From Apostichopus japonicus (taxonomy: Eukaryota; Echinodermata; Holothuroidea; Aspidochirotida; Stichopodidae), in NCBI RefSeq assembly GCF_037975245.1, contig NC_092562.1:11600001-11664000 (forward strand): DNA of 64,000 bases. Direction: 5' to 3'. How positions within the stretch are numbered: the stretch's first letter is position 1; each line of letters starts with the position of its first letter. The notes under the pieces were generated by a model. The model did not search any database. It saw only the letters and a list, made by a program, of their open reading frames with translations, and was not told the origin of the DNA. Made by a program: the position numbers and the translations under genes. Of the stretch, positions 8,077 through 46,620 are shown piece by piece.

Positions 8077-11000
8077 TATGGTGACAAACCTTTATTGCCA
8101 GCAAATCTTCAAATTTCGGAACAATATAGAACTTTATTCCTTCCCATGCGCCGGGAAGGGTAATTCCTTTAACAACCAGAATGGTGAGAAACACATAGGG
8201 AAGCAGTGCTGTAACGTATACTACCTATATGTAGGATGAACAGAAACGCATTTTACATAGATTTTAATGTATGAATGGCATTGGTCAATTAATAATAACA
8301 CTGTCCTGACGTAAGCGTATACGCTTTGGAGTAAACAGATCAATCTATCTTCACTTGCCCATGTGAATTTTTCCAACTGTTGATGAATTCGTTATCATAT
8401 AAATGAAATATTTTGAGAATATAATGTTGGCTTAACGTATTTTTGATAATAGTGACTTTTTGACACAACCGTAAGCTACAGTTTCAACGCACTTTTTCCG
8501 ACTTTTACCGTACCTTTGTCAAAGTTGGTTGCACAGAGGTATGGTTATTGTGCGGCGTTTGTAAATGATTATGTAGTTCATACCTCTTGTAATATTTTAG
8601 AAAAATAATTAACTTCATTAAGTACTTCATAGACGATAATATCAATTTACCTTTCCCAATGATTTGATCCCCTTTGCTACACATAGGTACACAGCAAACC
8701 AAGATAAGCAAAGACATCCTAGTAAATGCCAGTTCATTCCACCAAATTCTCCCATAGTACTCGGCAATCCATGAACTTTGTGACTGTATAGGTGGAAATA
8801 TTTGCAGATAATGGATTGGCTAAAAAAAAAAACGTTTATTGCTTTTGTACTTTAGTGCACATGATTTCAAAAGTGAGGGGTGTGACCCTGTGGTCCATAA
8901 AGATGACTCCCATGCAGGGGATCTGGAGGTTCTCCCTCAGGAGAAATAAATTTTTAGACGTCCTGGGGTATATTTAGACTATAATGTGGGTCTAGAATCA
9001 CCCCCCCCCCCCTCCGACTGACGACAGAAGGTGAGAAGGGGCATCACCCCATCTTGCATAAGCCACTGGCAAATTTAACCTGCATACGACATCTTTGGAG
9101 TGAGATGGATGGACTTGTATAGCATTTAGTCAGGTCTCGTTGTCTCGTAACAAAGGTAATCAACAAAGTGTTAACATCATTGTTAAATGTAAATCTTTGT
9201 TATATTTAAAAAAAAAAAAAAAAAATTTTTAGATAACTTGTCACAGAGTGGCACACTTTGGCATGCTTGTCACACTGTGACTGTTAATCACCCTAAATCA
9301 GCGTTTTTTGTGTTAGGTCGGGGATTTATGATATGTTACCAAATTTATCGAGTCTAATTCAAGATATGAAATATAGCCATTCATCAAATTAGGTAATATC
9401 ATGAATTCTTCCACCAAATAGCTGTAACTTTCAATTCAATGTTAAAGAAAATCTAAAATTATGAAAAAGGTTTACCCAAATAGTTTTTCCTATGTATATT
9501 ACTATTATTCATATGCAAAAGTAAATCGTAAACATTGAAAATGCTATTTTGTCAGTATTTGAAGGAAACCTTGAATATAGTCAGCAATCGCATTGATACG
9601 GGATTTTAGTATTGAAAATCAAAGAATCACCGAAATCAACGGAAAATAGCTGCTGTTCTTATAAAGAAATCATGTAGATGTTCCCTTAAAAAACTTACAT
9701 CCAAAACTCCTCCGAGGCTCGGACACTACTTTCTGTATTTCCCAGTTCTTGTGTTGTATTAAAGAGATCATCAAAGCAATACGGTGTGTTCCACTCGTTA
9801 TCACACGTAGTCCAAGGGAGGTGTGGAAAAGAGAGGGATTTCACAGCAAAGTAGATGGTCCATGAAATAATCACATTATAGTAGATATAAAGGAAAGTAG
9901 TTATCATAATAACGCCAATTCCAATACCTACAATGTAAAGAGAGGTGAAGAAATGTTGCGAACGTGACTTAATAAAGAAAGGGAAGTTTTGTGAACGTAC
10001 ATCCTTTAGGCCTAGGAAAATCAACTGTTCCCCCTTTATGATTGTCCCGAGAAAAACTGAAGCATTGAATTCCTTTATTCTATTTTATGTGTGGAAAGTT
10101 TAACAATATGAAAAGGAGGCTGTATATCCTCTGGAAAAAGAGGTACTTTTAAATAAATGTAACCCCCGAAAGTGCCCCGACTTTTCACCGTACGCTCACG
10201 GTACGTTTTCACCCGTGGAGCTGTCACCGGCTCCCTGTCAATAATTTGTACGGACGGACGGACGGACGGACGGACGGACGGACGGACGGACGGACGGACG
10301 GACGGACGGACGGACGGACGGACGGACGGACGGACGGACGGACGGACGGACGGACGGACGGACGGACGGACGGACGGACGGACGGACGGACGGACGGACG
10401 GACGGACGGACGGACGGACGGACGGACGGACGGACGGACGGACGGACGGACGGACGGACGGATATCTTTAAACGTAAACTTATCTGTGATAATATATGAT
10501 ATGAGTCCGAGCGTGGATGGGTCCGGCCAGTACTGAAAGTAATACTTTTATGTGTTGAATAACATGAAGAGGGCGCTCTCATTTCGGTCCCATTAGAGTT
10601 CCTCATTATAAAGGAACACTAGGTCCCATCTAGTTCCACGAAACTGCAGATCATACCGGTACCAGTATAATACACATATTCCTCCGTATAGTTATTAAAG
10701 AAGGGATATTTTGTACAGATATAACGCATTTATATATAATATATTACATATATAACAGCCTTTTGTTCGTTCGGCTAAACTGCACAAGCGGATCAAGTGG
10801 AACTGGTTAATCACCAAGCATGTCTTTATGCATGGACACCCACCATGATCACTCTTTAGTGACCACTTGCGTGATACCAGTGAAATATCAGGGTAGTATT
10901 TCCCGTATGGTGATACTTTGAGATCTGTGCACAGTACCGATCACGCGCATAAAAACTATAAAGTTTACGACTTTTTGATCAGGGGTCCCCTAACTGAGGT

Positions 11001-13461
11001 GCATCAACCCACAGCGGGTGCGTGAGTCCATCCCGGGGATTCGTGAGACGTTTCTGAAAGTCAAAACTCGAGTACGTTTTGTTGAACTAACATCTGATAT
11101 ATCATATAATTTAGTAATGACAAAAGTCGTACCTATCTACAAACTCTTTTCGCGTTCCTTACGCATATGTTGCCATAGTAGTACCGTACCGTGCATGTGA
11201 TAAATAACTGAATTATGAAAACAGACACAGGCCGCATGACTTTGGTGAAGTTGGTGTACGCATGACAATACTATCGTCAAGATAAAGAGCTGATCTGATC
11301 TTGAAGTTCCAAAATAAATATTTGTTCGTCTTTTTTTTTCTCATTACAATATTACACTATGAAATTGATCTTTTACGAAGCACTATTATGCGTATTATAG
11401 TATAAGAATGACTCAGATCGTGTCTCGAAAAGTTGGGGGTTCGTGGACAACTCTGACATCCACAGGGGGTTCGTGGGGATAAAGTTAGGGAAACCCTGCT
11501 TTAGATAAAGTTTGTGGCAGGTTTCAGAACCTAATGCAGAGGTAATAGACTGCATAACTAGGAAACATAGTTATAGCTTGGCTAAGTGAGTTTAATTACT
11601 CAATAGAACACAATCTGTTTGATAACTACACTGCAAACATATACATGTAATATAGGCATAAACATATTTGTAAATTAAACCCCAAGTTAGTGATAATAGC
11701 CAAGAAAGTATTACCCCGTTTGATAACATGATTCCAAATATCAGAGAGTACCGTATACCATTCCGTCGTCTGTGTGTAACGTCATAACTGTTTTTACTTA
11801 TATTTTGATATTCCCTTTATATTTTCTTATCCATAGTAAATGTTGTTGTTACTGACATTTCAAACTACTAAGTACCAAAGTTAAAAGTGAATAATAATAT
11901 TAATAATAATAACAACAACAACATGGAAGTATTAGTAACTCTTTATTTTTTTTATCTTTTGCACTTGCTCGCGTCTTCTCGTTCACTATGAATACTATGA
12001 TCAGTAGTCACGTCCAAGTTCCGATTCGTAAAATAAATGCACAAACTGGATGTATCCTGTTCCATTTTCTCCTTTCAAAAAAGATTTATGAATAATTAAA
12101 AAATAAACAAAGTATCACTAAACATTGTAACTTGCAGACAGCGCAACGTTTACTATTTCAACTTCATATTCATTTCAAATATCATATGGGTTGGACAAAA
12201 TGTTACCTTTAAACAGGGGACAGAAATTCCAGATAGTGAGGGGACCATGGCCTGCGAACTGTCCAAGACAAATCTCCATGAAAAACAGCGGGAGTCCGCA
12301 AAGGAAAAACATGATGATGTAAGGAAGAAGAAATGCCCCTGCCAATAGGAAACAAAAATGCTATACAAATTATGTAATTTGTAATTATATCGGGATTTAT
12401 CTTTTAGTTTAAGAAAAATGATGAATTGTTAATTTCCACGTAAAGCCAGCTTACTAATTCAGCAAATGAAAATGTTTCAAATGAAATGACGTGAATCTCA
12501 TCACTTTGAAAATGTGTGACAAAATTGTTAACATATATACTTACTTATTTATGTGTTTTGTGCTGTCACTTTGTACTAATCAAATGTAAAGGTTATAAAA
12601 TGTCAAATTGCTTATAACTTCTATGTGAGCGACAAGAAAAAAAACATGCTTGAAAAGTTTGCACAAATTTGTTCAAATGCAGTAAGTTAGATTGATTAAT
12701 TTTCTTCTTTGAAGAAAAACAATTTATCCTTTATACGTCTCTTCGACGTTTCCATATTTATAGCAAGGCGTTTTGAAGTAACTTGAACCTCGGCCATTTA
12801 GACCTACCCCATATAATGTTACGCCTCCATAGTTATACAAGTTGAGGGGCCTCTCCCTTCCCCTCCCCCTCCGCGATGTTGAAAAATTATGGTTCTGCTC
12901 CATCAATGTTTTACATATATGGACACACTTAACGACAATGTTAGATCATTCAACTGGATCCAAAATGAGCATCAGACAACCGAATTGTCTAATTCTCGGT
13001 TTTTGCTCGAATTTCTGACCTGAAAAGTCAAAACTCGGATGAAATACTGTAATTTGTAAAAGAAGAAATTTTGACAAGCAAATAAATAGCATATAGCATT
13101 TGCATCAACAAAACTAAAACTCTTTGGAAGAGTTTCTCCCACCCCGCTCTCCCCCTGACCCTCGCTTTTCAAGTGATATTGATTCTTACGTCACTGATAC
13201 AAATGGACCGTTTTTGGTTTATTGAGAGAACAGAAATACCTAGAAGAAGAAGAACAAATTTCAAGTGCTATGTCACTACAACGCAATTACCCAATGATAT
13301 ATGGCATAAGGTAATACAGACAAAAATGATAGCCTACCTCCTCCGTTTTCATAGCATAGATAGGGAAATCTCCAGGCATTGCCAAGTCCAACTGCGGATC
13401 CTATGCACGCCAAGAGGAACTCAACTTGAGATCCCCACGTTTGTCTCATTTTGTCTTCCAT
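2595..13461 (-). CDS. SLC6-family Na+/Cl- dependent neurotransmitter or amino-acid transporter (12 exons, lacks the tail exon)
   Basis: Twelve exons on the minus strand join in phase with GT..AG junctions into 534 codons: 13338-13461, 12207-12338, 9699-9927, 8651-8783, 8090-8224, 7412-7515, 6144-6268, 5673-5785, 5229-5360, 4756-4855, 3522-3622, 2595-2768. Family hallmarks appear in order: TM1 [22 protein letters not shown]2 [19 protein letters not shown], the EL2 cysteine pair [10 protein letters not shown] with an NTT sequon, TM5 [10 protein letters not shown]6 SLGISIG..ASYN, TM7 [16 protein letters not shown]8 [11 protein letters not shown] and LGVDSE, then TM9-TM12. TM1 has Gly where monoamine transporters carry Asp, so amino-acid, glycine or GABA-type substrates are more likely than monoamines; the exact substrate is not determined. 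It should act in the plasma membrane. The exon after WQ (donor at 2594) encoding the cytoplasmic tail was not recognised and may lie left of the window. Introns hold a SINE, a LINE scrap, a (CGGA)n tract and a hAT element. Confidence 0.93.
3522..3622 (-). CDS. SLC6 exon 11 (intracellular loop, TM11)
   Basis: The acceptor CCATTTTAG restores phase with exon 10 ([13 protein letters not shown]). It continues [20 protein letters not shown] and ends LM at ATG|GTAAGT. The ..F..D+..M.G..PG.YW..CW/I.. signature is typical. Confidence 0.92.
4756..4855 (-). CDS. SLC6 exon 10 (TM10)
   Basis: It encodes [18 protein letters not shown], then [15 protein letters not shown], ending in phase 1. LF.L.DWY... 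followed by ..YIYG is the usual TM10 pattern. Confidence 0.9.
5229..5360 (-). CDS. SLC6 exon 9 (TM8-TM9 loop, TM9)
   Basis: It encodes [40 protein letters not shown] and MVTK. The E..IT.IMD helix and TM9 match the family. Phase 0 at both ends; the acceptor is TTTGCAAG. Confidence 0.92.
5673..5785 (-). CDS. SLC6 exon 8 (TM8)
   Basis: It encodes [47 protein letters not shown] and LG(V/L)DS are near-invariant family motifs of the Na2 site. The acceptor is TGATTCAG and the donor GTGAG|GTGAGG, phase 0. Confidence 0.93.
6144..6268 (-). CDS. SLC6 exon 7 (TM7)
   Basis: It encodes [40 protein letters not shown] and S, ending in phase 1 at AGTG|GTAGGT. The Asn/Ser residues of TM7 involved in Na+ and Cl- binding in this family are retained. 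Confidence 0.92.
6500..6796 (-). pseudogene. LINE reverse-transcriptase C-terminal fragment (CR1/Jockey-type)
   Basis: A 98-codon minus-strand frame has the thumb-region pattern of non-LTR retrotransposons: [18 protein letters not shown], then VQKSAARI and [15 protein letters not shown]. The catalytic domain is absent, so it is a 5'-truncated relic. It sits in SLC6 intron 6 in the same orientation as the gene. Confidence 0.75.
6906..6999. repeat. (TA)n microsatellite
   Basis: Nearly uninterrupted TA dinucleotides with a few TTTA interruptions, in an SLC6 intron; a smaller TA-rich stretch follows at about 7096-7150. Confidence 0.9.
7412..7515 (-). CDS. SLC6 exon 6 (TM6)
   Basis: It encodes [18 protein letters not shown], then [16 protein letters not shown]. 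It has the unwound SLG...G segment that contacts substrate and Na+ in the family, followed by ASYN..HNNC. The acceptor is CTAATAG and the donor TTTCAG|GTATTA (phase 2). Confidence 0.92.
7789..7963 (+). mobile_element. tRNA-derived SINE, family 1, copy 1
   Basis: This is about 175 bp with a leader (CCTACAGTGGAGTTACGACC ...), a tRNA-like body (7844-7916) and a tail ending TTCCAACTCATTACGATTTT. The body has an A box TAGCCTAGTGG (7852-7862), a B box GGTTCGAACAC (7895-7905) and near-complementary 7-nt ends (AGCGTCC / GGAGGCT). Leader, body and tail are all repeated at 58823-58998, which makes this a SINE and not a lone tRNA gene. Both copies sit in TA-rich DNA. It lies in SLC6 intron 5, antisense to the gene. 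Confidence 0.8.
7985..8080. repeat. (TA)n microsatellite
   Basis: TATATA tract with TTTA interruptions immediately 3' (in gene orientation) of SLC6 exon 5. The Tyr-Ile repeat frames here are artefacts. Confidence 0.9.
8090..8224 (-). CDS. SLC6 exon 5 (TM5)
   Basis: It encodes [38 protein letters not shown] and EDLLAIK, phase 0 at both ends; the donor AAG|GTTTGT is slightly weak. TM5 of SLC6 proteins typically ends ..G.TLPGA. Long (TA)n tracts abut it downstream in the intron. Confidence 0.92.
8651..8783 (-). CDS. SLC6 exon 4 (end of EL2, TM4)
   Basis: The acceptor CCACCTATACAG gives phase 2 to 1 with exon 3. It encodes [20 protein letters not shown], then TM4 [20 protein letters not shown], and ends in phase 0 at AAAG|GTAAAT. 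Confidence 0.9.
9699..9927 (-). CDS. SLC6 exon 3 (TM3 and extracellular loop 2)
   Basis: TM3 contains [14 protein letters not shown]; the loop has [15 protein letters not shown], the conserved disulphide pair, and the sequon NTT, ending EEFW. The acceptor is ACATTGTAG and the donor GGAT|GTAAGT (phase 2). Confidence 0.93.
10251..10462. repeat. (CGGA)n tetranucleotide array, about 53 units
   Basis: Perfect CGGA repeats for about 212 bases inside SLC6 intron 2. The Asp-Gly-Arg-Thr repeat frames on the plus strand and Arg-Pro-Ser-Val frames on the minus strand are translation artefacts of this array. Confidence 0.97.
10980..11498. mobile_element. hAT-like miniature element, 'CAGGGGT' family, copy 1
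   Basis: It starts CAGGGGTCCCCTAACT and ends AGTTAGGGAAACCCTG, hAT-type inverted ends. The flanking 8-mers TTTTTGAT and CTTTAGAT agree at 6 of 8 positions. The body aligns over most of its length with 37840-38341 (shared GTGAGACGTTTCTGAAAGTC, CATCTGATATATCATATAAT). There is no transposase frame. It lies in SLC6 intron 2. Confidence 0.85.
12207..12338 (-). CDS. SLC6 exon 2 (TM2)
   Basis: It starts after TTGGCAG and encodes [29 protein letters not shown], ending [10 protein letters not shown] with a phase-1 donor (g|gtaaca). It fits exon 1 (YENGG+G) and exon 3 (G+IGIGV). This is a diagnostic SLC6 TM2 segment. Confidence 0.93.
13338..13461 (-). CDS. SLC6 exon 1 (N terminus and TM1)
   Basis: It encodes [10 protein letters not shown] followed by TM1 with [19 protein letters not shown] and ends in phase 1 at the donor in gga g|gtaggc. 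An in-frame TGA lies 11 codons upstream (13492-13494) with no AG between it and the ATG, so this ATG is a plausible start. The cytoplasmic N-tail would then be only about 10 residues, short for the family. The alternative is an upstream exon spliced to an AG just inside (after GGAAG or ATGAG). Confidence 0.88.
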
Positions 13462-13499
13462 ATTAAGAGGGTTGGTATATAGTTGTAGCAGTCAACGGC

Positions 13500-14560
13500 A
13501 GGAATACGTTTGGTGATAACTTTTTTCTGTAAAAAAAGCCGGAAAAAGAAGGATTACATCAGCGAATAATAATGAAATACGATTATTTAGTCGACAGTGA
13601 CAAATTTGTCTAGAACTACCGCCTGATGCCGAAGCTACTTGTTATATATATATATTTATGTGTGTGTGTGTGGGTGGGTGGCGCCCTTTTGTAGTATGTA
13701 GTATAGGACTAAACTGGATAAAACTGGCTTTTATATACTTCAGTTTAATTGTAAAAAAGAAATAAGAATATTCTTGTAGTAACCAACCGAACTGCAAAGA
13801 ATATCGTATTCCCTTCGAGAGACATCAAGCTTGAAGGCTTGATCAAGTCTAAATAGCACAGTTCTTTATTTAAAAAATATGTAAAAAATTATATAAAGGA
13901 TATTTTCCCCCGATAAACCGGCCGCGTAAAAGAAAACCCGGTTTGCACCAACAATAGTTCCAAATGACACATTTTCTGGCATCGTATAGCCTTTGCACCA
14001 ATCTTATAGTCCGTATGAAGTTAAGAAATTGGCTGGTAACTTTTTGGAGGGTAGAATCTTTATCTGGTTTCGGAATGAGGGTAATAATTGCGACTGGATT
14101 AGGAAAGAGAGAGATGGATATGATTGTAGGAATAATTTAAAGAGTCAACTACATAGATCCCGAAATGATGCCACAACTTTTTTCTTTTTTTTTTATAAAA
14201 ATTAGCTGAAAGGCCATCCCTGCCAGGAGATCTGTCATTATTAACAGAGTTAAGTGAAATACTGCAATCCGCGAACGTAAGTTACATGTCGCAGCTATTA
14301 GAGTCATCGTAATTTAAAATGCTTCGGGTGCAAATAAAAGAAAAATCGTATGCGGGTTACAGTGACTGCTCTTATATAAATTTTCATGAAATGAGAGATT
14401 TATGAAGGAATGGTCAGATTAAATGCCTGGAGAATGTCACGCGTCGGATACTGAATGAACGATATGACGTAAAATCAGGGGAAAAACTAATGGGTATTGC
14501 AAACCTGGGGTGATATTAGAGGTTCATGTCTAATTTTCGAATCTGGGATTTCTCTCCCTC
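13500..14560. other. Upstream flank of the SLC6 gene; no gene recognised
   Basis: The DNA is AT-rich, with a short TA/TG tract at 13644-13675. No TATA-plus-start arrangement or conserved frame was seen. A 5' UTR exon of SLC6 ending in an AG at about 13528-13530 (TTTTTTACAG) is possible. Confidence 0.4.
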
Positions 14561-14584
14561 CATATGACGATTAGGGACAGCCCA

Positions 14585-15185
14585 GTCAGTCATAAAAGAA
14601 ATACGTTCTTTCCGAGCACGAAAATTTGTTTTTGTAGTTCAAACGAAATACCCAACATAGTAACAGGACCAAGTGTGACATTCAAAGCTAGGTCAGTAAT
14701 TAATATAGGGGGATTATTAATATACGGACCCAAGGGCGTAATATTACACTTTGAAATATTGATAGCAAGCCCAGAGCCCGATCTAAAGTCATTCAACACA
14801 CTAAGGATTTCCTTTAAGGAATCCCTACTATCATCAGGAAAAACGAAGTGTCGTCTGCATATTTTGATAATTTCATTTCACTATTCCCTAACATAATACT
14901 TTTATATTGATATTTGAGATAACCTTGAAAGCAGGAACTTCCACACAAAGTATTAAAAGATAAGGACTCAAGGAACATCCCTTTCCAACCACCCTCTTCG
15001 AAATTGAAGAATCCAGTTGAATAATGGCCATTATTACAGACACGTGCATTGCCTCTCTTATAAATACAATATAATCCACTCTCTAAGACTATTATCAAAA
15101 CTAAAAAAAACGACAGAGTATATTCAATAAAATTCCATTCCAACTTATCAACAGCTTTTTTTCAAAATGAGTAAGCCTGAAATGT
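14585..15185 (-). pseudogene. Decayed L1/Tx1-type LINE reverse transcriptase
   Basis: Reading frames broken by shifts spell successive RT motifs on the minus strand: KAVDKLEWNFIEY (motif A region), KGCSLSPYLLILCVE (RQGCPLSP-like), KYADDTSFFL with the catalytic YADD, then LNDFRSGSGLAINISK and LGPYINNPP. The order and spacing match L1/Tx1-clade RTs. Several frameshifts and stops make it inactive. Confidence 0.8.
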
Positions 15186-15349
15186 TGTGAAACACTGAAA
15201 CGAACGTCCGGGCAGCACAGTCGGTTCTGGATCAAATGAACTTTAAGATCAATATTCCGCACAAACTCCAACGATAAGGAAGAAACATCAGTGATGTAAC
15301 CTCTAATGACCTCGCTCACCACCAAAATCACTAGGAGAAAAGTCACGCG

Positions 15350-16364
15350 CCAATCATGTGACTATTGTCATCATTCGCTTGTCCTCGCCTCGAACCCACC
15401 CACTCCTGACTTTCACAGTCACCTAATGTCAGGATAAACTTTCTTTGTCTTCCCATAGAAACTCCCTTCCCTCAGCCTCACCCCCCCCCCTCCCCCTATA
15501 CTGACCGTATAAATCCTGAGCATTCCGAAACTTATTACAGGATTCCACATGTGACCTTTTTTTTGAAAATAAGGAAGACTGCATGTTTTGAATGAAAATT
15601 GGTTATACATTGTTAAAAGGTAGCAAATGGTGGAGTGTAGGGCCGAGCGGTCAGGGTGAGGGTAGGAGGGGTACATGGAAATTATGGTGGGACTACCCTT
15701 ACTTATTATACAATATATTCCCACCAAAAACATACACCCACATAATAACTTTTCCAATTGGGTTAAGAAGTTAAGAAAAGAGTTGTTCCTAGTACGTTTA
15801 TAATCGCAACAGCAGAAGCATTAAATTGATCACAAAGAAATAAAACAAATGCATACACCATGAATAACAAATAGGATCATATTTGGTATTGTTTGATTTT
15901 ATTAATATAAAATCACTTGCCTTTCTTGTCTCAGGCTGTATGACAAAGAATAGTGAAACAAAAGACGAGTTGATTGTCGTGACTCGTCAGCAAAATATTA
16001 ACGTTATTCATAACAAGAGAAAGAGTGAAACACATTTGACTACAATTTAAACATTCATTCATATCATTCATGAGTAATACATTGGGCATCATATGTAGGG
16101 ATGTAACCATGTTTTTAAAAAGAGTGGTGTGCGGCCCTGAGGTCGTTGAAACTTAAGAACTACCTGTAGGGGTATGTGGGTTGTACCCCAGAAAAAAAGT
16201 TGCATACTTAGAGAGAAATTAGATCTATATATAGGTCTATAACACTGAAATAAGCTGTTGCCAACCACCGAAACTTGTATGATATAGTGGCGCTATTTGA
16301 AATGTATTAAGTCTCAAGAGAGAACACATTTTTGTATCAATACCTATGAGATGAAGCCTTATAG
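15350..16364. other. Intergenic, no gene recognised
   Basis: It contains a poly-C/CT tract near 15480-15497 and short unconserved frames only. Nothing else could be supported. Confidence 0.5.
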
Positions 16365-17353
16365 TGTAGCGCCCCCAACGGGGTTTTAAATTGCCGAGCG
16401 GCCGTGGGTTCGATAGGGCCGCTGTCGGCCACCCTATGTCAGGATGAATGTGGGGCAACTACAAGTTGAGACAACCTGAACCAATAAAAATACGAACAAA
16501 TAAATTGCTTTTTAAGCTTCTAATACATTTAATACAAAACCTTTGCCTTCTCCACTTGGGCAGGTGTCTATAAAAGCCAAATTAAATAATACATGAGGTC
16601 AACGCAGTGACCTCCAAAAATATTTAATTAATTACATACAAATCCACATAAATCACAGCTTATAATTTACATAAATGACAACGATACGTACCTGCGAAGT
16701 CCGTGGCCAAACGTATAATTACGAGTCCTAAATCTGCAATACGTAGGCGTTGCCTCGGGGAAAATTCAACCCGAATTAAGGTCACCCCCGCGCCACAAAT
16801 ATAAGAATAACCCCGCAGGGTGCGGCGATAATATCGACCGTGTTCCCAACCTTTTAATAAATTTAGGTGTGATAATTTAAAGGGATTCTGACAAACGGGG
16901 AAATACGCCCACAATATTATAAGAAATAGGACTCGGACTTGCCTAAACTATAAAAGAACATTTAACTTACTTAACGAACTGACCAACGGACCTCACTAGG
17001 TAGCAGCAAACACCAAAAAATAGAACACACTCTTGGAACCCAAAATGGCAAGTGCCCTAACTTAACACAAAAACTGAATCGAAACATTGGAACTTCGCGT
17101 GGCTCGAACATTCCACATAGCTACGGAGGGACCAGACTATTGTCACGAGAGCTGGACAGCTGAGAGGGAGACGGAAACAAAAGGTATAAATTAGCATATG
17201 AAACTACAACAATTCACTTTACATATAAAAAGATATTAGATAAAACAGACCCCCAGAGAACAATAAAACAATACCCACAAACAGGACAACTAGTCCAACA
17301 GTAATGCCACCTATGTACGGAGGCGTTTACGTGACGCTCCCCTGGGCGTCACA
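16365..17353. mobile_element. Solo LTR of a retrotransposon (about 989 bp)
   Basis: The segment runs from TGTAGCGCCCCCAACGGGG to CCCTGGGCGTCACA, so it begins TG and ends CA. It is flanked on both sides by the 4-mer ATAG (16361-16364 and 17354-17357), a target-site size usual for Gypsy-type elements. There is no gag/pol frame and no second copy in the window, which fits a solo LTR. Orientation is uncertain: the reverse strand also starts TG and ends CA. Confidence 0.6.
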
Positions 17354-17812
17354 ATAGGATTTCCATCTTACAGATGCTTTACGGCTAGGGAGGGATAGAA
17401 ACGGGGTGAGCTAATTGGTCAGAAGGAGAGAGGGAAGCAGGAAGGGGTAAAAAAAGAAGAAGAATGAGCACAACAGTTTCAAACCAGCTGATGTTTCCAG
17501 TTCAACCCTCTCCCACACGCATATATATATAATGTGCAATTAAGAAAAACGTCAGGACGTTGTTGTGAATTAAAACTTATTCATTTAAAATTATTTAACT
17601 TGAAGTCACATAGCATTGAGATCCGTTTCATACAATTCCCTTTATAAACCATTATATCTTTCCGTTTGAATGGTGTACACAGTGACATTAAACTTACTAA
17701 GCAAGATAACAATTGAAGGTGAAAGGCTTATATATCACAATATTTTACAGTTTCTTTGACTTAGCACGTTTACTTGCTTTATCTTCGGAAGTAAGCTCAT
17801 TAATAGTTGAAT

Positions 17813-17824
17813 TGCGCATGCGCG
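17813..17824. promoter_or_regulatory. NRF1-type palindrome TGCGCATGCGCG
   Basis: It is an exact match to the YGCGCAYGCGCR consensus of NRF1, common in TATA-less animal promoters. It lies about 240 bp upstream of a good donor (ATATCG|GTAAGTTG at 18059/18060), so it probably marks the core promoter of the plus-strand gene at 18757. Confidence 0.6.
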
Positions 17825-17829
17825 AAGAA

Positions 17830-18059
17830 AGTTGCGCAAAAAAAAACCCAACAGAAAGTAATGCGCGTATGATTGTGACACAAAATGATGAGCAACAGCA
17901 ACTGGTGAATAGTTTAGCGCGTATTGCAATATAGGGTCAAGCGTACGCGCGTTGTCATAGATACTGTACACAACATATCTTGGCATATACCGAACGTAAC
18001 TAACTACTGCAGGCGTATTGAGTCTAACGATTGCCGTCGGGAATATCAAGGGCATATCG
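17830..18059 (+). other. Probable 5' UTR exon of the 18757-21408 gene
   Basis: Inferred from the donor ATATCG|GTAAGT at 18059, the NRF1 motif just upstream, and a spliced-looking acceptor (TTTCCTTTGTAG, 18734) 22 bases before the coding ATG. The transcription start is not determined. Confidence 0.4.
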
Positions 18060-18734
18060 GTAAGTTGTCTTCTGCAGTCTTACATTATATGTGTTTTTAA
18101 TTGAATGGTTAGAACTTGTAGTATCCCACACAGATACACTAACGAGGAATCATCTGTTTAAAATTATGTTAGTTATAGAGCATAAGTGCGTAGGAAATGC
18201 GTAAGAAGAGTACAATGTATAACTTGTTGCTCTATGAGTGTGTGTCGTTTTTGTATGCGAGTCACACGGACTAGGCCTATATGATATAGGGTTGAAACCG
18301 GGTATGAAAGGTCACCGTCGAAGGGGGGGGGGGCGGGGTGGTGAAGCGGTAGAAAATGAACATTGCATTTGATTGGAATAGGGAATGTATGGATAGGCCA
18401 ATATGAGCAATGCCGTCTTTCTTTGTTATATATTAATAGACGTGAAACTTCAAATTTCAACGAGGGAAGTGGTCGAAGTTGCTAACTAGTTTGCAAGAGA
18501 TGCACATTATTATTTTTTCTAGGAATGACAAGGCCTATTGGTTTGCTTTTTAGGATCATTCGAGATTTTAATGGATCGCAACTAAACTGTGGGGATCGAT
18601 GGGTCAACACCACCACTGGAATCACATCTCACACCATAACTCGTTTTAATAATTATATTTTAGTTATCGTGAGAAGCGATTAACCTTGTCTCCAAAGAAC
18701 ATACCATTTTATGTTTGGTTACTTTCCTTTGTAG

Positions 18735-19767
18735 ATATCCACCTTGATCGAGCAACATGGGTTTCAAGAACAAGAAGAATCGTGTTCATCCAACCGGAAA
18801 CAATAAGAAGCAACAACGGAAAGAGAGAAAGAGGAGAAGATTAGCTCGACTAATCCAGAGGATCAACCCTTTCTCTTGTTGCACTGGGGACGGTGAACCC
18901 AAAAATGTCGACAACCAAGAGCCCAGCGTTGTCGAGGACGGCTGTACCTATCAGAAGCTTACGAAACCCACAGGAAGCCTTCATTGCCCTTTACCTGCAC
19001 AGATGGATTCTGGCATCATTAAAACATCACCACTAGTGAAGCTATCTGTAAAGCCCAACAAATACCCACGTTTTGCTAGGTCCCCTGTACATCCCAGCAA
19101 AGCCCCTACCAATATGACGTTACCAGCTACCAGCAGCAGCCGTGTATCCGTTACATCCTCCGTTGGATCAGACCTGTCCTCCGACGATGACTCTTTCTAT
19201 CCACCTAAGAGTCATTCTAAATATCTTCTTCCCGTTGATGGTCCCTCAATCCCGGTGAGTCATTCAAGTCGCACGGAGCGGCAACTTCCACTTCAGATGC
19301 ACCAGTCCAACGCGTCAAAATCTTTCCAAATGACTAATTATCGACCAACATCAGTTGCGATACCAGGAGATTTATTCCAACACAGAGCTACAGTATGCCC
19401 GCCAATTGGACCTGCAGATGTGCACCAAAGATTACCTTACTGTAGAATGGTTCAGAAGTCATTGGCAAATAGCAGTGATTGGGAAGAGTCACGTCACGCC
19501 TCGCGAGTAGTTGTTGGGAAGGAAAGCGAGATTTCGGATGACTTTGACGATAGTTTTGAACCAGCGCAGTTCTCTTCAGGGTTCCTACAAACACGTGACA
19601 AGAGATCAATCAAGTCATACGGCGAGCAAGGCCCGGTTACTAGGCAACCAGAGACTGACTGCTTGAATGAACAAACTGATCCATCAGATGAAGAAAGCGA
19701 CGATGATAACAATCATCGGCAGGAGAACCAACTGTATGATCTAGAACCATGTTCTAGCCCCGAAAAG
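18735..19767 (+). CDS. Exon 2 of the 595-residue gene (first coding exon)
   Basis: The acceptor is TTTCCTTTGTAG; the ATG at 18757 is in AGCAACATGG, a fair Kozak context. Coding runs 337 codons to the donor GAAAAG|GTATAC in phase 0. The sequence is largely disordered (Ser, Pro, Asp rich). Confidence 0.85.
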
Positions 19768-21408
19768 GTATACCTGATAAATACATTGATCTTGTTTGTT
19801 TTTGCACATTATACTGACTAATGAAATCAGAAGAAATGGTATTATCATTTCGCTGCAACAAACTGAAATAGCGTATATTGTCCAGGCGTTCACATTGTAC
19901 TATACCTACTTTCATGTAGGAAGTGTAAATCTCATGGAGGGGGGGGGGGGTCATGTGCCCCCTGCCCCACCACATAGGCTACGATCCTGAATTTAGTGCA
20001 AAAATATTAAATTCTACATATGTTTATGGAGTAATGCTTCTGGCAACAGTGCTTTGTGAATCTGCGCTGAAGCAAAGACTTCTGTCTAAAAGTTAGACAA
20101 TATTCGTAAACCCGGAAATGAAATAGCTTACAGTTTTATTTATGTTGGGATAATACTGTTAACAGAGATCTGGAACAGTCTTTGTTCTTTCTGTTGATTA
20201 TGTGTAAGAAACTTCAGACAATGTAAAGTCATTAGAGGAACGCTGGTCTTCATAACGTATGTATATATTGTAACATTGATTAGTTATACGTAGCCCAAGT
20301 TTACTAAACATAATGAGAGAAACTCTTCTTTAGATGTATTTGACCGTGACTGTACATAACAGAATCACGATAAGTCCAGTTTAGCTGATAAAGCTAGTCG
20401 TTGTCTAGTTAGTCTCAAGAATTTGGATATCAAAGTATCTGCATGGAGAAAGATGAATGAATTTCACGTATAGCGATCGTTTTTTTTTTTCATTTGTCGC
20501 CCACGTGGAAAACACATCATGTGCAATCGAGTAATATACAGTAATAATAAAGCTATATATTAGATTTTTTTTTCTAAAAGATTTTTTCAAGACCCCTGTT
20601 TTTTTCTGGGTTTTTTTCGTCCTCTTTTCAGGACGTGGAATACTTTCCAGGAGAAGAAGAACGTTATCTCCCGCTGATTAAGACCAGCTTACGTTGTCTT
20701 CGTGGATGGCTTCTCCCAATCAGCATACAGCAATGTACCGTTCAGCCAGAACCACCGGCTTTACTTGAAGATGACAAGCCTATCAAGTCATGTGCCATCA
20801 ACCACACCCTCCTCGCAATCTCCTACTACTCTAATAACCTGCAGAGTGGTATCTCGTTTCGAGGTGAACAGTGCCCATACTTTCTTGATGCAATGTTTCG
20901 TTCTGTGATCGAAAATGGTAACACCGTTCATTTGGAGAATTATGCCCACCAACATAAAGTGAGGGCAGTGGAGGCCTTAACGTTATTAAAGACCAAATAC
21001 GATGCCTGGAACCTCGAATGGGATACAAGCAGCACACTGAACCACAAACCAGTGAGTACGCTGTCAAAAACGGAAGATATTTCTGATGGTGTGCCAATGG
21101 AAATCTATTGTCCACAGTCTACCGAATTATCCCTAGCCTATCACATATCAAAGATCGATGTGAACGCATGCGAGGCCTTGTTGTACACATTTAACGGGCA
21201 GTCGATGGTCTTCGTTCCAACTGGTGACGGTCGAATTCTTCTAATGGACCAACACGCTCATGTTGACATGGATGGTGGCGCTATCGTTGCCGTTTGTCCC
21301 AATAGCATAACGCCCATTCAAGATATGCTGAACGACTACCGTTTGGAATACCATAAGTCAAACAACAAAATGGGCCGCGGAATAAAGTTCTCATACATGA
21401 GGACATGA
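18757..21408 (+). CDS. Uncharacterised 595-residue protein with a possible C76/tegument-like cysteine-peptidase domain
   Basis: Two coding exons (18757-19767 and 20632-21408) join in phase 0. Residues 1-45 are strongly basic (KNKKNR ... KERKRRRLARL), like a nuclear or nucleolar signal. About 46-330 is Ser/Pro-rich and low complexity, ending in an acidic stretch (DEESDDDNN). The C-terminal ~258 residues are globular: a Cys in KSCAINHTLLAISYY, a helix FLDAMFRSVIENGNTVHLE, and about 150 residues later a strand pair ending ILLMDQHAHVDMDGGAIVAV. A Cys followed by a hydrophobic helix, then G-x-x-(x)-I-L-hydrophobic-D-x-H, is the layout of C76 / herpes-tegument-type ubiquitin peptidases. The usual upstream Gln cannot be placed with confidence. 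No family member was recognised by sequence, so the enzymatic role is a hypothesis. Confidence 0.8.
20632..21408 (+). CDS. Exon 3 of the 595-residue gene (globular C-terminal domain)
   Basis: A long pyrimidine tract precedes CTCTTTTCAG. The exon encodes DVEYFPGEEERYLPLIKTSL and onward to SYMRT-stop (TGA, 21406-21408), 258 residues with no break. Candidate active-site residues are Cys in SCAINH and the D-Q-H pair in LMDQHAH. Confidence 0.85.
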   Translation, partial: DVEYFPGEEERYLPLIKTSLRCLRGWLLPISIQQCTVQPEPPALLEDDKPIKSCAINHTLLAISYYSNNLQSGISFRGEQCPYFLDAMFRSVIENGNTVHLENYAHQHKVRAVEALTLLKTKYDAWNLEWDTSSTLNHKPVSTLSKTEDISDGVPMEIYCPQSTELSLAYHISKIDVNACEALLYTFNGQSMVFVPTGDGRILLMDQHAHVDMDGGAIVAVCPNSITPIQDMLNDYRLEYHKSNNKMGRGIKFSYMRT

Positions 21409-22950
21409 ACATCATATATAGATCAACTTATTTTATACTAACTTTTATACAAAAACAAAAACAAAAAACCAACAAAATCACGAAAATAATGAAGATATAT
21501 TTAGAAACTTGAGAAAATTAAAGTGTGTAAATTGTGGCAAAAAACAAATAGTAAATCTGATGCAGTAGAGGATCGATTCATCGTGAAATGGCAGGCATGA
21601 ATAATGGATAGGAATTATCTTTCGAATTGACTGACGATTTTTAACGTTAAAATTCAGCTTTATCAACTGTACAAGCTCTCAATATGACGGTCTTGAAGAT
21701 GGATGAAGAAAGCAGTGACACTGATCGCAAAAGAAATGGAAAAAGAAATAGAAAGAGAATGATATATCTTTATAATGGTGGCTCAACAGCAGCTGTTTAC
21801 AACGGAACCGCGATAGCATACCGATACCGATACCGCGCTACATGATGGAAAGAAACAGAAGGATGATCGGAACTGATATTAGAAACTGGAATGAGACAAA
21901 CCTAGATCAACAACAGTATCCTGGCGTATGAACCAAGGTGATTGGTAGGGGGGGGGTGGATTGTGATTTACAGAGCTACCTTCATGTATGTTGCTTTAAG
22001 GCTCTGAACTATTAGGGATATTAGGGTGTACAAATAGTGTAATTAGATATAGCCTCTTCATTTTTTTTTTTTTTAGGGGGGGGGTCTTTTTTCTTGCCTT
22101 TTTTTCCCCCTACTTTTTTCCGGATTTTTTTCTATGCAACTTTTTTTTTGCACTATTTTTTTATATATATTTTTTTATGGAGTGGGGAACTATGGGTTTT
22201 GGGGGTGAGTAGATAGAGAATTGGGGTGGGTGGAGGTAGAATGTAAACGGGGAGGGAGGGGCAAGCACTACCATGAGTTCAGCGCCAGGGTACTTACAGA
22301 TTTCATACCAAATGCCATTCCAGTAGCCATCCACCTATATATATATATATACGTTGAGCTTACGCTAAGACACAGCCGGTTCCACCACCAGCCGTTGACC
22401 AAACTTGATCAAGAACTGTATTAACTCGTCAAAAGTCAGAAACATTTTCATCATATGAACTCATGCCATGCAAAGACCTGTCAATTGTTCACAAGTAAAT
22501 AAAGAAATGAAATAGCGCCACAACATAGCATTAGTTTTTGTGCCTTTATGATTATGGACAACGGTGTTGTAATACGTATAATCTCTGCTTTATTGTTTTA
22601 GTCTTTCTTCGCATGTTTATCTTTACCCTCTTCTTTATTTTGAGCAATTAAAAGAAAATCAAGTTAGACACTATAAATTACTTTGATAGTGGCAGTACAA
22701 AATCTGCAGCAAACAGTACACCCACCCCCTCTCTTATCACCTCTTATCAAAGTACACATTTCATGCTATCAAAATCTACCGATCTCAAAAAATAGGAGTC
22801 TTATTTTTTCCGGCCGGGCGGGATTCGCCCCTGGGTCGCTGAAGCGCCTTACGACGGAAACAGCATTATACAAAACATATCGTATCGTAACATGAATGGG
22901 AGCGGTATCACAAACCTGCCTCGTTATCCTCTGAACACTTATCGAAAAGA
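21409..22950. other. 3' flank and intergenic DNA; no gene recognised
   Basis: AT-rich, with a poly-T/poly-G block at 22060-22180 and a short repeated CCGATA word at 21818-21836. A poly(A) site for the preceding gene could not be chosen. Nothing else is supported. Confidence 0.5.
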
Positions 22951-22979
22951 GAAGGCTTGAAATAAGCCGGTGTTCATCC

Positions 22980-23062
22980 GCAACCTAATACGGATAGGGT
23001 CGCAAATTAGCTAATTTAAGGCTTCCTGATCCTTGGGTCTCTAAACTGAACTAAACTAACAA
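22980..23062 (+). mobile_element. 3' tail of a CR1-like LINE
   Basis: GCTTCCTGATCCTTGGGTCTC is followed by CTAAACTGAACTAAACTAAC, the same ending (CCTGATCC then ACTAA repeats) as the LINE at 23580-23967. Only the tail is recognisable. Confidence 0.5.
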
Positions 23063-45430: not shown

Positions 45431-46620
45431 CAATTTCCCCGAATGAACCTTGGGTTGGGGGGGGGGGGGTTATACAGGCGCGGCGGAACGGAAAAATTAT
45501 TGGGGGGGGGGCTAATGTGTGGAGACTATCTAAGCGGAGCGCCACCATCGGTTGGCGCGGAGCGTATAAGAAAATTTGGGGTTTTTTCAAACCCCCAGAT
45601 GGCCGGAAATATGGAAAGCCATTTTAACATTTAATCGGGAATTTTAGATATCTGAAATTGTTTCTTATTTTCAGATATCTGAAATTGAATTCGAGATATC
45701 TGAAATTGAATTCGAGATATCTAAAATAGATTTCGAGATATCTGAAATTCTAATTCAGATATCTGAAATTGAATTCGAGATATCTGAAATTGAATTCGAG
45801 ATATCCGAAATTGAATTCGAGATATCTGAAATTCTATTTCAGATATCTTAAATTTAATTCGAGATATCTGAAATTGAATTCGAGATATCTGAAATTGAAT
45901 TCAAGATATCTGCAATTCTAATTCGAGATATCTGAAATTGAATTCGAGATATCTGCAATTGAATTCGAGATATCTGAAATGCATATGCATAAATTTCCGA
46001 TTAAATGTTAAAATGGCACGTATGGAAAGCCATTTAACATTTAATCGGGAAATTTCAGATATCTGTAATTGAATTCGAGATATCTGAAATTGAATTCGAG
46101 ATATCTAAAATTCTATTTCAGATATCTGAAATTGAATTCGAGATATCTGAAAATGAATTCGAGATATCTGAAATTTTATTTCAGATATCTGAAATTGAAT
46201 TCGAGATATCTGAAATTGAATTCGAGATATCCAAAATTCTATTTCAGATATCTCAAATTGAATTCGAGATATCCGAAATTGAATTCGAGATATCTGAAAT
46301 TGAATTCGAGATATCTCGAATTCAATTTCAGATATCTGAAATTCCCTGGTATTTCGAGATATCTGAAATTGATTTTAAGATATCTGCAATTATTTGTAGA
46401 TATCTTAAATAAATTGGAGATATCTGTAATTTAATTTGAGATATCTGAAATTATTTCGAGATATCTGAAATTCCTTATTAAATGTTAAAACGGCTTTCCA
46501 TACGGAAACGGCACTTCCCGAGTGTTTTATGCTGCGAATACCTAGCCCTAAAATATGGGTCTCAAGCCTGCAATTTCTCAGATTGCACGTAAAAGTCTGT
46601 AAAAACATTGTAATTTGTAT
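45430..46620 (-). repeat. Dispersed repeat copy split by the 45610-46502 insertion
   Basis: The left part (to 45609) carries the reversed core GACTATCTAAGCGGAGCGCC ... GGTTGGCGCGGAGCG and ends CAGATGGCCGGAAA. The right part resumes CGGAAACGGCACTTCCCGAG. The uninterrupted counterpart is the reverse of 2280-2310 (CACCGGAAACGGCACTTCTC). Confidence 0.7.
45610..46502. mobile_element. GATATC-array element with inverted ends and 6-bp target-site duplication
   Basis: The outer ends are TATGGAAAGCC and GGCTTTCCATA, extended by (A)TTTTAACATTTAATCGGGAA and its inverse. The direct repeat CGGAAA lies outside both (45604-45609, 46503-46508). The interior is about 40 copies of a 21-bp unit, GAATTCGAGATATCTGAAATT, with interspersed CAGATATCTG palindromes. 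An internal junction near 46018-46021 splits it into two units, each with the same ends, so it may be a tandem or nested pair. Asn-Ser-Arg-Tyr-Leu-Lys repeat frames are artefacts. Confidence 0.88.

Follow-up and report, generated by a model that had tools for sequence, protein, structure and literature searches.

Does the gene at positions 18757-21408 of the window, the stretch of 64,000 nucleotides analysed here (contig C2, 11600001-11664000), encode a cysteine protease of the tegument-like kind, and how does it relate to the enzymes of that kind already described? Viral tegument-like deubiquitinases (VTDs) are characterized by a Cys...Asp-x-His order that mirrors the classic triad, their Asp-x-His motif is called invariable, and those characterized so far cut ubiquitin (PMC9741609). 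They were reported from Helitrons, insects, nematodes, cnidarians, fungi, protists and a few bacteria; Drosophila ms(3)76Ca and five C. elegans genes are host genes located outside transposons, and it was proposed that VTDs spread with transposons and were domesticated several times (PMC9741609). The fly and nematode VTD genes are reported to be expressed in the male germline. Since VTDs are known from animal genes, the idea of a tegument-like protease in animals has precedents, and the statement of the preliminary description that no animal gene family with this architecture had been described was wrong as far as the layout is concerned (PMC9741609). In the sections available to us of the VTD and tegument-like literature, including PMC9741609, PMC10643670, PMC10318531 and PMC4067079, we found no description of the sequence family of the window. 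The words "echinoderm" and "sea urchin" are absent from the main text of PMC9741609, and sea urchin Helentron proteins have been reported (PMC4067079). In this sense, novelty may lie in the sequence family and the architecture of its proteins. We favor, with a probability of about 55%, that it constitutes a host-encoded family of papain-like Asp-x-His cysteine proteases, probably directed to ubiquitin and VTD-like.

A two-exon gene and its paralogues

The two-exon gene at 18757-21408 is real. The longest open frame reaches 357 codons vs 165 at most in 200 single-base shuffles of 17501-23000, and this length together with the five paralogues places the gene above chance. The three-base periodicity of exon 1 was reached by 40 of 2830 random stretches of the same length elsewhere in the window, and that of exon 2 by 25 of 2834. 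The start codon lies in the context AACATGG (A at -3, G at +4), with an in-frame TGA four codons (12 bases) 5' of the ATG. Joining both exons at their phase-0 junction, as the splice sites in the sequence predict, gives a protein of 595 residues. A basic N terminus, a disordered Ser/acid-rich middle and a C-terminal domain had been claimed for it, and the exon model and the composition agree: residues 1-45 have a pI of 11.8, residues 46-337 are rich in Ser, Thr, Pro, Asp and Glu (GRAVY -0.89), and residues 338-595 have a GRAVY of -0.28. Neither exon gave a significant match to any model of the Pfam, NCBIfam and PHROGs libraries; weak matches at E 0.03 or worse were taken as chance.

A search of the genome (671.6 Mb, 35 contigs) with the window domain gave six places at E <= 0.001, the window included; the C-terminal domain therefore has five or more paralogues, a lower bound that comes from this one search. 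Domain identity to the window ranges from about 30 to 54%. Three paralogues share its contig within 0.46 Mb: the copies at 11.57 Mb (54%) and 11.49 Mb (53%), which are L002 and L003, and L004 at 11.16 Mb (44%); the other two, L005 and L006, lie on C5 (32%) and C16 (31%). Exon 1, including the basic N terminus, is also matched by L002 and L003, and in L004 the basic N terminus was found as a separate stretch upstream of the domain, with 76% identity over 51 residues. Searching the surroundings of the C5 and C16 copies (10-kb stretches) at E up to 0.001 did not detect this N terminus. At all six places the domain is part of a stop-free open frame. In 14 of the 15 family pairs pS is 0.70-0.84, near saturation, and pN is 0.27-0.52 (NG86, several dS values being infinite), and the young pair L002/L003 has a dN/dS of 0.20 by the same method. 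With their stop-free frames and pN below pS, the six copies look like maintained protein-coding genes. This is a small, partly clustered family of host genes with the protein under constraint.

The L002 reading frame runs on through the presumed intron without a stop (154-2271, 707 codons), hence this copy may be translated with the intron retained as well as in spliced form.

Table 1. Features of the window and of related loci; positions are those of the window unless a locus is named.
Feature	Position	Strand	Basis or remark
Sodium:neurotransmitter symporter, two exons	12175-12360, 13276-13491	minus	PF00209, E 4.7e-16 and 1.9e-18
Possible 5' UTR intron (CG/GTAAGT ... TTTGTAG/AT)	18059..18734	+	splice-like sites by eye
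Coding exon 1 (337 codons, residues 1-337)	18757..19767	+	open frame, upstream in-frame stop, GT donor
Predicted intron GT...AG, phase 0	19768..20631	+	between linker and candidate catalytic domain
Coding exon 2 and stop (residues 338-595)	20632..21408	+	whole candidate protease domain
Gln371, candidate oxyanion-hole residue, 20 before Cys391	20731..20733	+	6/6 alignment rows by eye; putative role
Cys391, candidate nucleophile	20791..20793	+	5/6 rows; Ser in L006
His395, invariant	20803..20805	+	6/6 rows
Asp543-Gln-His545, candidate catalytic Asp-x-His	21247..21255	+	Asp 6/6, His 6/6
His547, second invariant His of D-x-H-x-H	21259..21261	+	6/6 rows
Helitron-type VTD domains without stops	L007 1480-2082; L008 1498-2004; L009 1384-1986 (minus)		PF04843 search
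VTD copies with stops in or beside the match	L010, L011, L012, L013, L014		PF04843 search

Candidate catalytic residues and the comparison with VTDs

The preliminary description had singled out the Cys of SCAINH, an Asp-x-His about 150 residues later and a GGAIVAV after it, and we located each of them: Cys391 sits in KSCAINHTLL, and Asp543-x-His545 lies within ILLMDQHAH, 152 residues past the Cys, followed by GGAIVAV. The motif by itself was discarded as telling, because the bare pattern of Cys and Asp-x-His at similar spacing appears in 3651 of 20000 domain shuffles (18%); a stricter version, defined after viewing the sequence, appears in 62 of 20000. It is conservation across the paralogues that raises the motif above chance. 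That description had tied its proposal to the conservation of these residues, and among the paralogues of the same genome Asp543 and His545 are kept in 6/6 rows and Cys391 in 5/6; as they are kept at domain identities down to 30%, the Cys...Asp-x-His idea survives on this point. Asp536 and Asp568 are likewise invariant in the six family rows, and the invariance of Gln371 is seen in the longer of the family alignments. An oxyanion-hole Gln before the Cys is kept in papain-like enzymes. A simple propensity plot, too crude to use, gave strand and not helix after Cys391.

In L006 (1504-2049) a Ser replaces the candidate catalytic Cys and Asp-x-His-x-His is intact; this copy is a candidate inactive member of the family.

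The resemblance to C76/tegument peptidases that had been proposed holds for the order of the residues and for their spacing, since 152 falls inside the published VTD range of 121-169; the searches gave no significant sequence link. The spacing is 129 in DrT1-VTD2 (C322, D451) and 121 in Wc-VTD1 (C319 and D440 in the text, the figure legend having C313A) (PMC9741609), and 169 in SnVTD, as worked out from the mutants C104A and H275A (PMC10643670). Neither the window domain nor the family gave a match to PF04843 or any other significant Pfam match, and the sequence search of the PDB gave no significant match to any VTD. Comparing the family with VTDs, hhalign returned a probability of at most 0.15%, and HMMER at most 0.1 bits vs 2.5 bits reached by family shuffles against the VTD model. 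No relative was found in the viral contigs scanned with the domain, the family alignment and the Helitron VTD alignment. The best PDB matches, to an ATP synthase epsilon chain (E 0.15-1.2) and, with the profile, to an insecticidal toxin chain (E 0.15, 35 columns), were rejected as chance.

Searching the genome with PF04843 gave eight places, seven of them above the cut-off, and none is the window family. Among these, L007 and L008 match at E 7e-12 and 1e-12, respectively. The L008 domain is adjoined by a PIF1 helicase frame; that of L007 shares its frame with DUF6570 and matches the structure of a zebrafish Helitron VTD (8ADD, E 1.8e-17). At the level of sequence, the Helitron VTDs of this genome are distinct from the window family. 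A recognizable Helitron copy at the window gene was ruled out, with no PF04843 match there vs eight places elsewhere. Furthermore, no enzyme of rolling-circle transposons (Rep, PIF1 helicase, endonuclease) was recognized among the window's 254 open frames with 60 or more residues, inspected by eye, ten of which were scanned with Pfam.

A home-made, unconstrained local profile-profile alignment of the six-member family with Helitron VTD rows (L007, L008, 8add) paired, over 156 columns, Cys391 with the VTD Cys, Asp543-x-His545 with the VTD Asp-x-His and GGAI with GKAI. Its score of 21.9 compares with 14.7 +/- 2.4 and 15.0 +/- 2.5 when the columns of one or the other side are shuffled, and 5/1000 and 12/1000 of these shuffles reach it (z 2.7-3.2, about 3 SD above shuffles); reversed profiles scored 13.8, and omission of any single row gave 19.0-24.8. 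With three more VTD fragments added the score was 22.4, reached by 2/1000 and 15/1000 shuffles, and in this extended alignment gaps break the stretch around Asp-x-His. Four other gap settings kept all three residues in two cases, only the Cys in one and only Asp-x-His in one, the partial results coming with stiffer gap costs. Gln371 was reached in one gap setting, paired with a VTD Ser and not with the VTD Gln, and the invariant G-N of the family is unpaired with the G-D of VTDs. The position of His547 is occupied in Helitron VTDs by Arg in four and Lys in one of five covering rows. Taken with these limits, the alignment is suggestive of kinship with VTDs.

Proposed mechanism and competing explanations

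In the reading that we favor, Cys391 would be the nucleophile, activated by His545, and Asp543, two residues before this His, would orient it as in VTDs, with Gln371 as a possible oxyanion residue. The triad would cut after the C-terminal Gly-Gly of ubiquitin or a ubiquitin-like protein, as VTDs do; since the characterized VTDs cut ubiquitin, ubiquitin or a relative would be the likeliest substrate (PMC9741609). The basic N terminus and the disordered linker would place the enzyme in the cell, and the basic stretch before FSCC, with the long linker, suggests targeting to the nucleus, the nucleolus or a membrane. The candidate domain may have been captured long ago from a transposon, and its location within a single exon would fit this. 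We infer the papain-like fold, the catalysis and the ubiquitin target of the window protein. A bolder reading, to which we give somewhat less than even odds, is an animal family of Asp-x-His cysteine proteases not yet described, neither Helitron VTD nor Pfam family and partly clustered, which is marked by D-x-H-x-H with its second invariant His, shares a conserved basic N terminus among four copies and may act on a ubiquitin-like substrate of its own.

The same layout may instead belong to a different Asp-x-His thiol protease, akin to UFSP2 or ATG4 and acting on ubiquitin-like proteins, or to a separate papain-like lineage that arrived at it without VTD ancestry. In favor are the absence of a significant VTD match for the family and the Asp-x-His triad common to UFSP2 and ATG4 (PMC9741609). 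We consider this unlikely, as none of the six members matches a Pfam peptidase at E up to 5, the sole match being DUF6924 in one member (E 0.22). Moreover, GWGC, a motif characteristic of the UFSP2 and ATG4 families, is missing around Cys391. The invariant residues may be read in another way: His545, His547, His395, Asp536 and Asp568 are kept in 6/6 rows vs 5/6 for Cys391, and D-x-H-x-H is similar to the motif by which amidohydrolase-like and PHP enzymes bind metal, so that, in a protein that is not a cysteine protease, it could bind metal or serve a structural role within a different fold. This explanation stays alive because of the second invariant His547, unlike the Arg or Lys of Helitron VTDs. 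However, that metal motif stands at the opening of the amidohydrolase and PHP barrels, and in the window protein only about 50 residues follow it; there is no Pfam match to those families and Cys391 is kept in five of six members, and we regard a metal or structural site as rather improbable. A scaffold that keeps the fold, with some or all members no longer cutting, would account for the Ser of L006 and has a precedent in insects, where inactive VTD genes form a large group (PMC9741609), but Cys, Asp and His are retained in the window gene and in 4/5 paralogues, and we regard such a scaffold as very unlikely.

Genomic neighborhood and relation to known systems

The symporter exons lie upstream of the protease gene. 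The window from 2.4 to 13.7 kb, these exons included, has counterparts at 11.583-11.594 Mb, in collinear order and with 66-98% identity. In this nearby duplicate, 657 bases are followed by sequence matching window 21839-22611, so that window 13698-21839 (8.1 kb, with the gene) is opposed by 0.66 kb at C2 11593895-11594553; the comparison covered a joined 184 kb with about 1.4% N. As the duplicate joins the flanks across the 657 bases, it has neither the protease gene nor the 8 kb around it, and the two segmental copies thus differ by the gain or loss of the entire gene. Inspected by eye, the 657 bases could come from a LINE. The window also holds two tandem repeats, one at 10075-10618, open in several frames (GRTDGRTD on the + strand and SVRPSVRP on the - strand), and one at 45648-46434 with EFEIS/FQIS-like units, open on both strands.

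A divergent, constrained and partly clustered family, in a genome that also has stop-free Helitron VTD domains, would point to one more domestication event, in a different animal lineage, and would offer new specificities for linkages or modifiers. Since the residues are conserved, a small protein and a handful of point mutants would be enough to test the enzyme claim.

Among known systems, Helitron VTDs (DrT1-VTD2 8ADD, L007, L008) resemble the window protein in having a Cys, an Asp-x-His about 120-170 residues later, a strand of small residues and an ending stretch. They show no significant sequence similarity to the window family, carry D-S-H-S-R/K in place of D-x-H-x-H and, in L008, lie beside a PIF1 helicase frame, whereas the window holds a two-exon gene with no transposon enzyme recognized among its frames. 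Drosophila ms(3)76Ca and the five C. elegans VTDs are, like the window gene, host genes whose domain has all predicted catalytic residues; compared by description, each of them encodes a VTD domain alone, whereas in the window a basic and disordered part of 337 residues comes first (PMC9741609). The protease of the herpesvirus large tegument protein (C76, PF04843) shares the Cys...Asp-x-His order with the window family, which gives no match to PF04843. UFSP2 (C78) and ATG4 (C54) share the Asp-x-His triad (PMC9741609), but none of the six members matches their Pfam families, and their GWGC motif is missing around Cys391.
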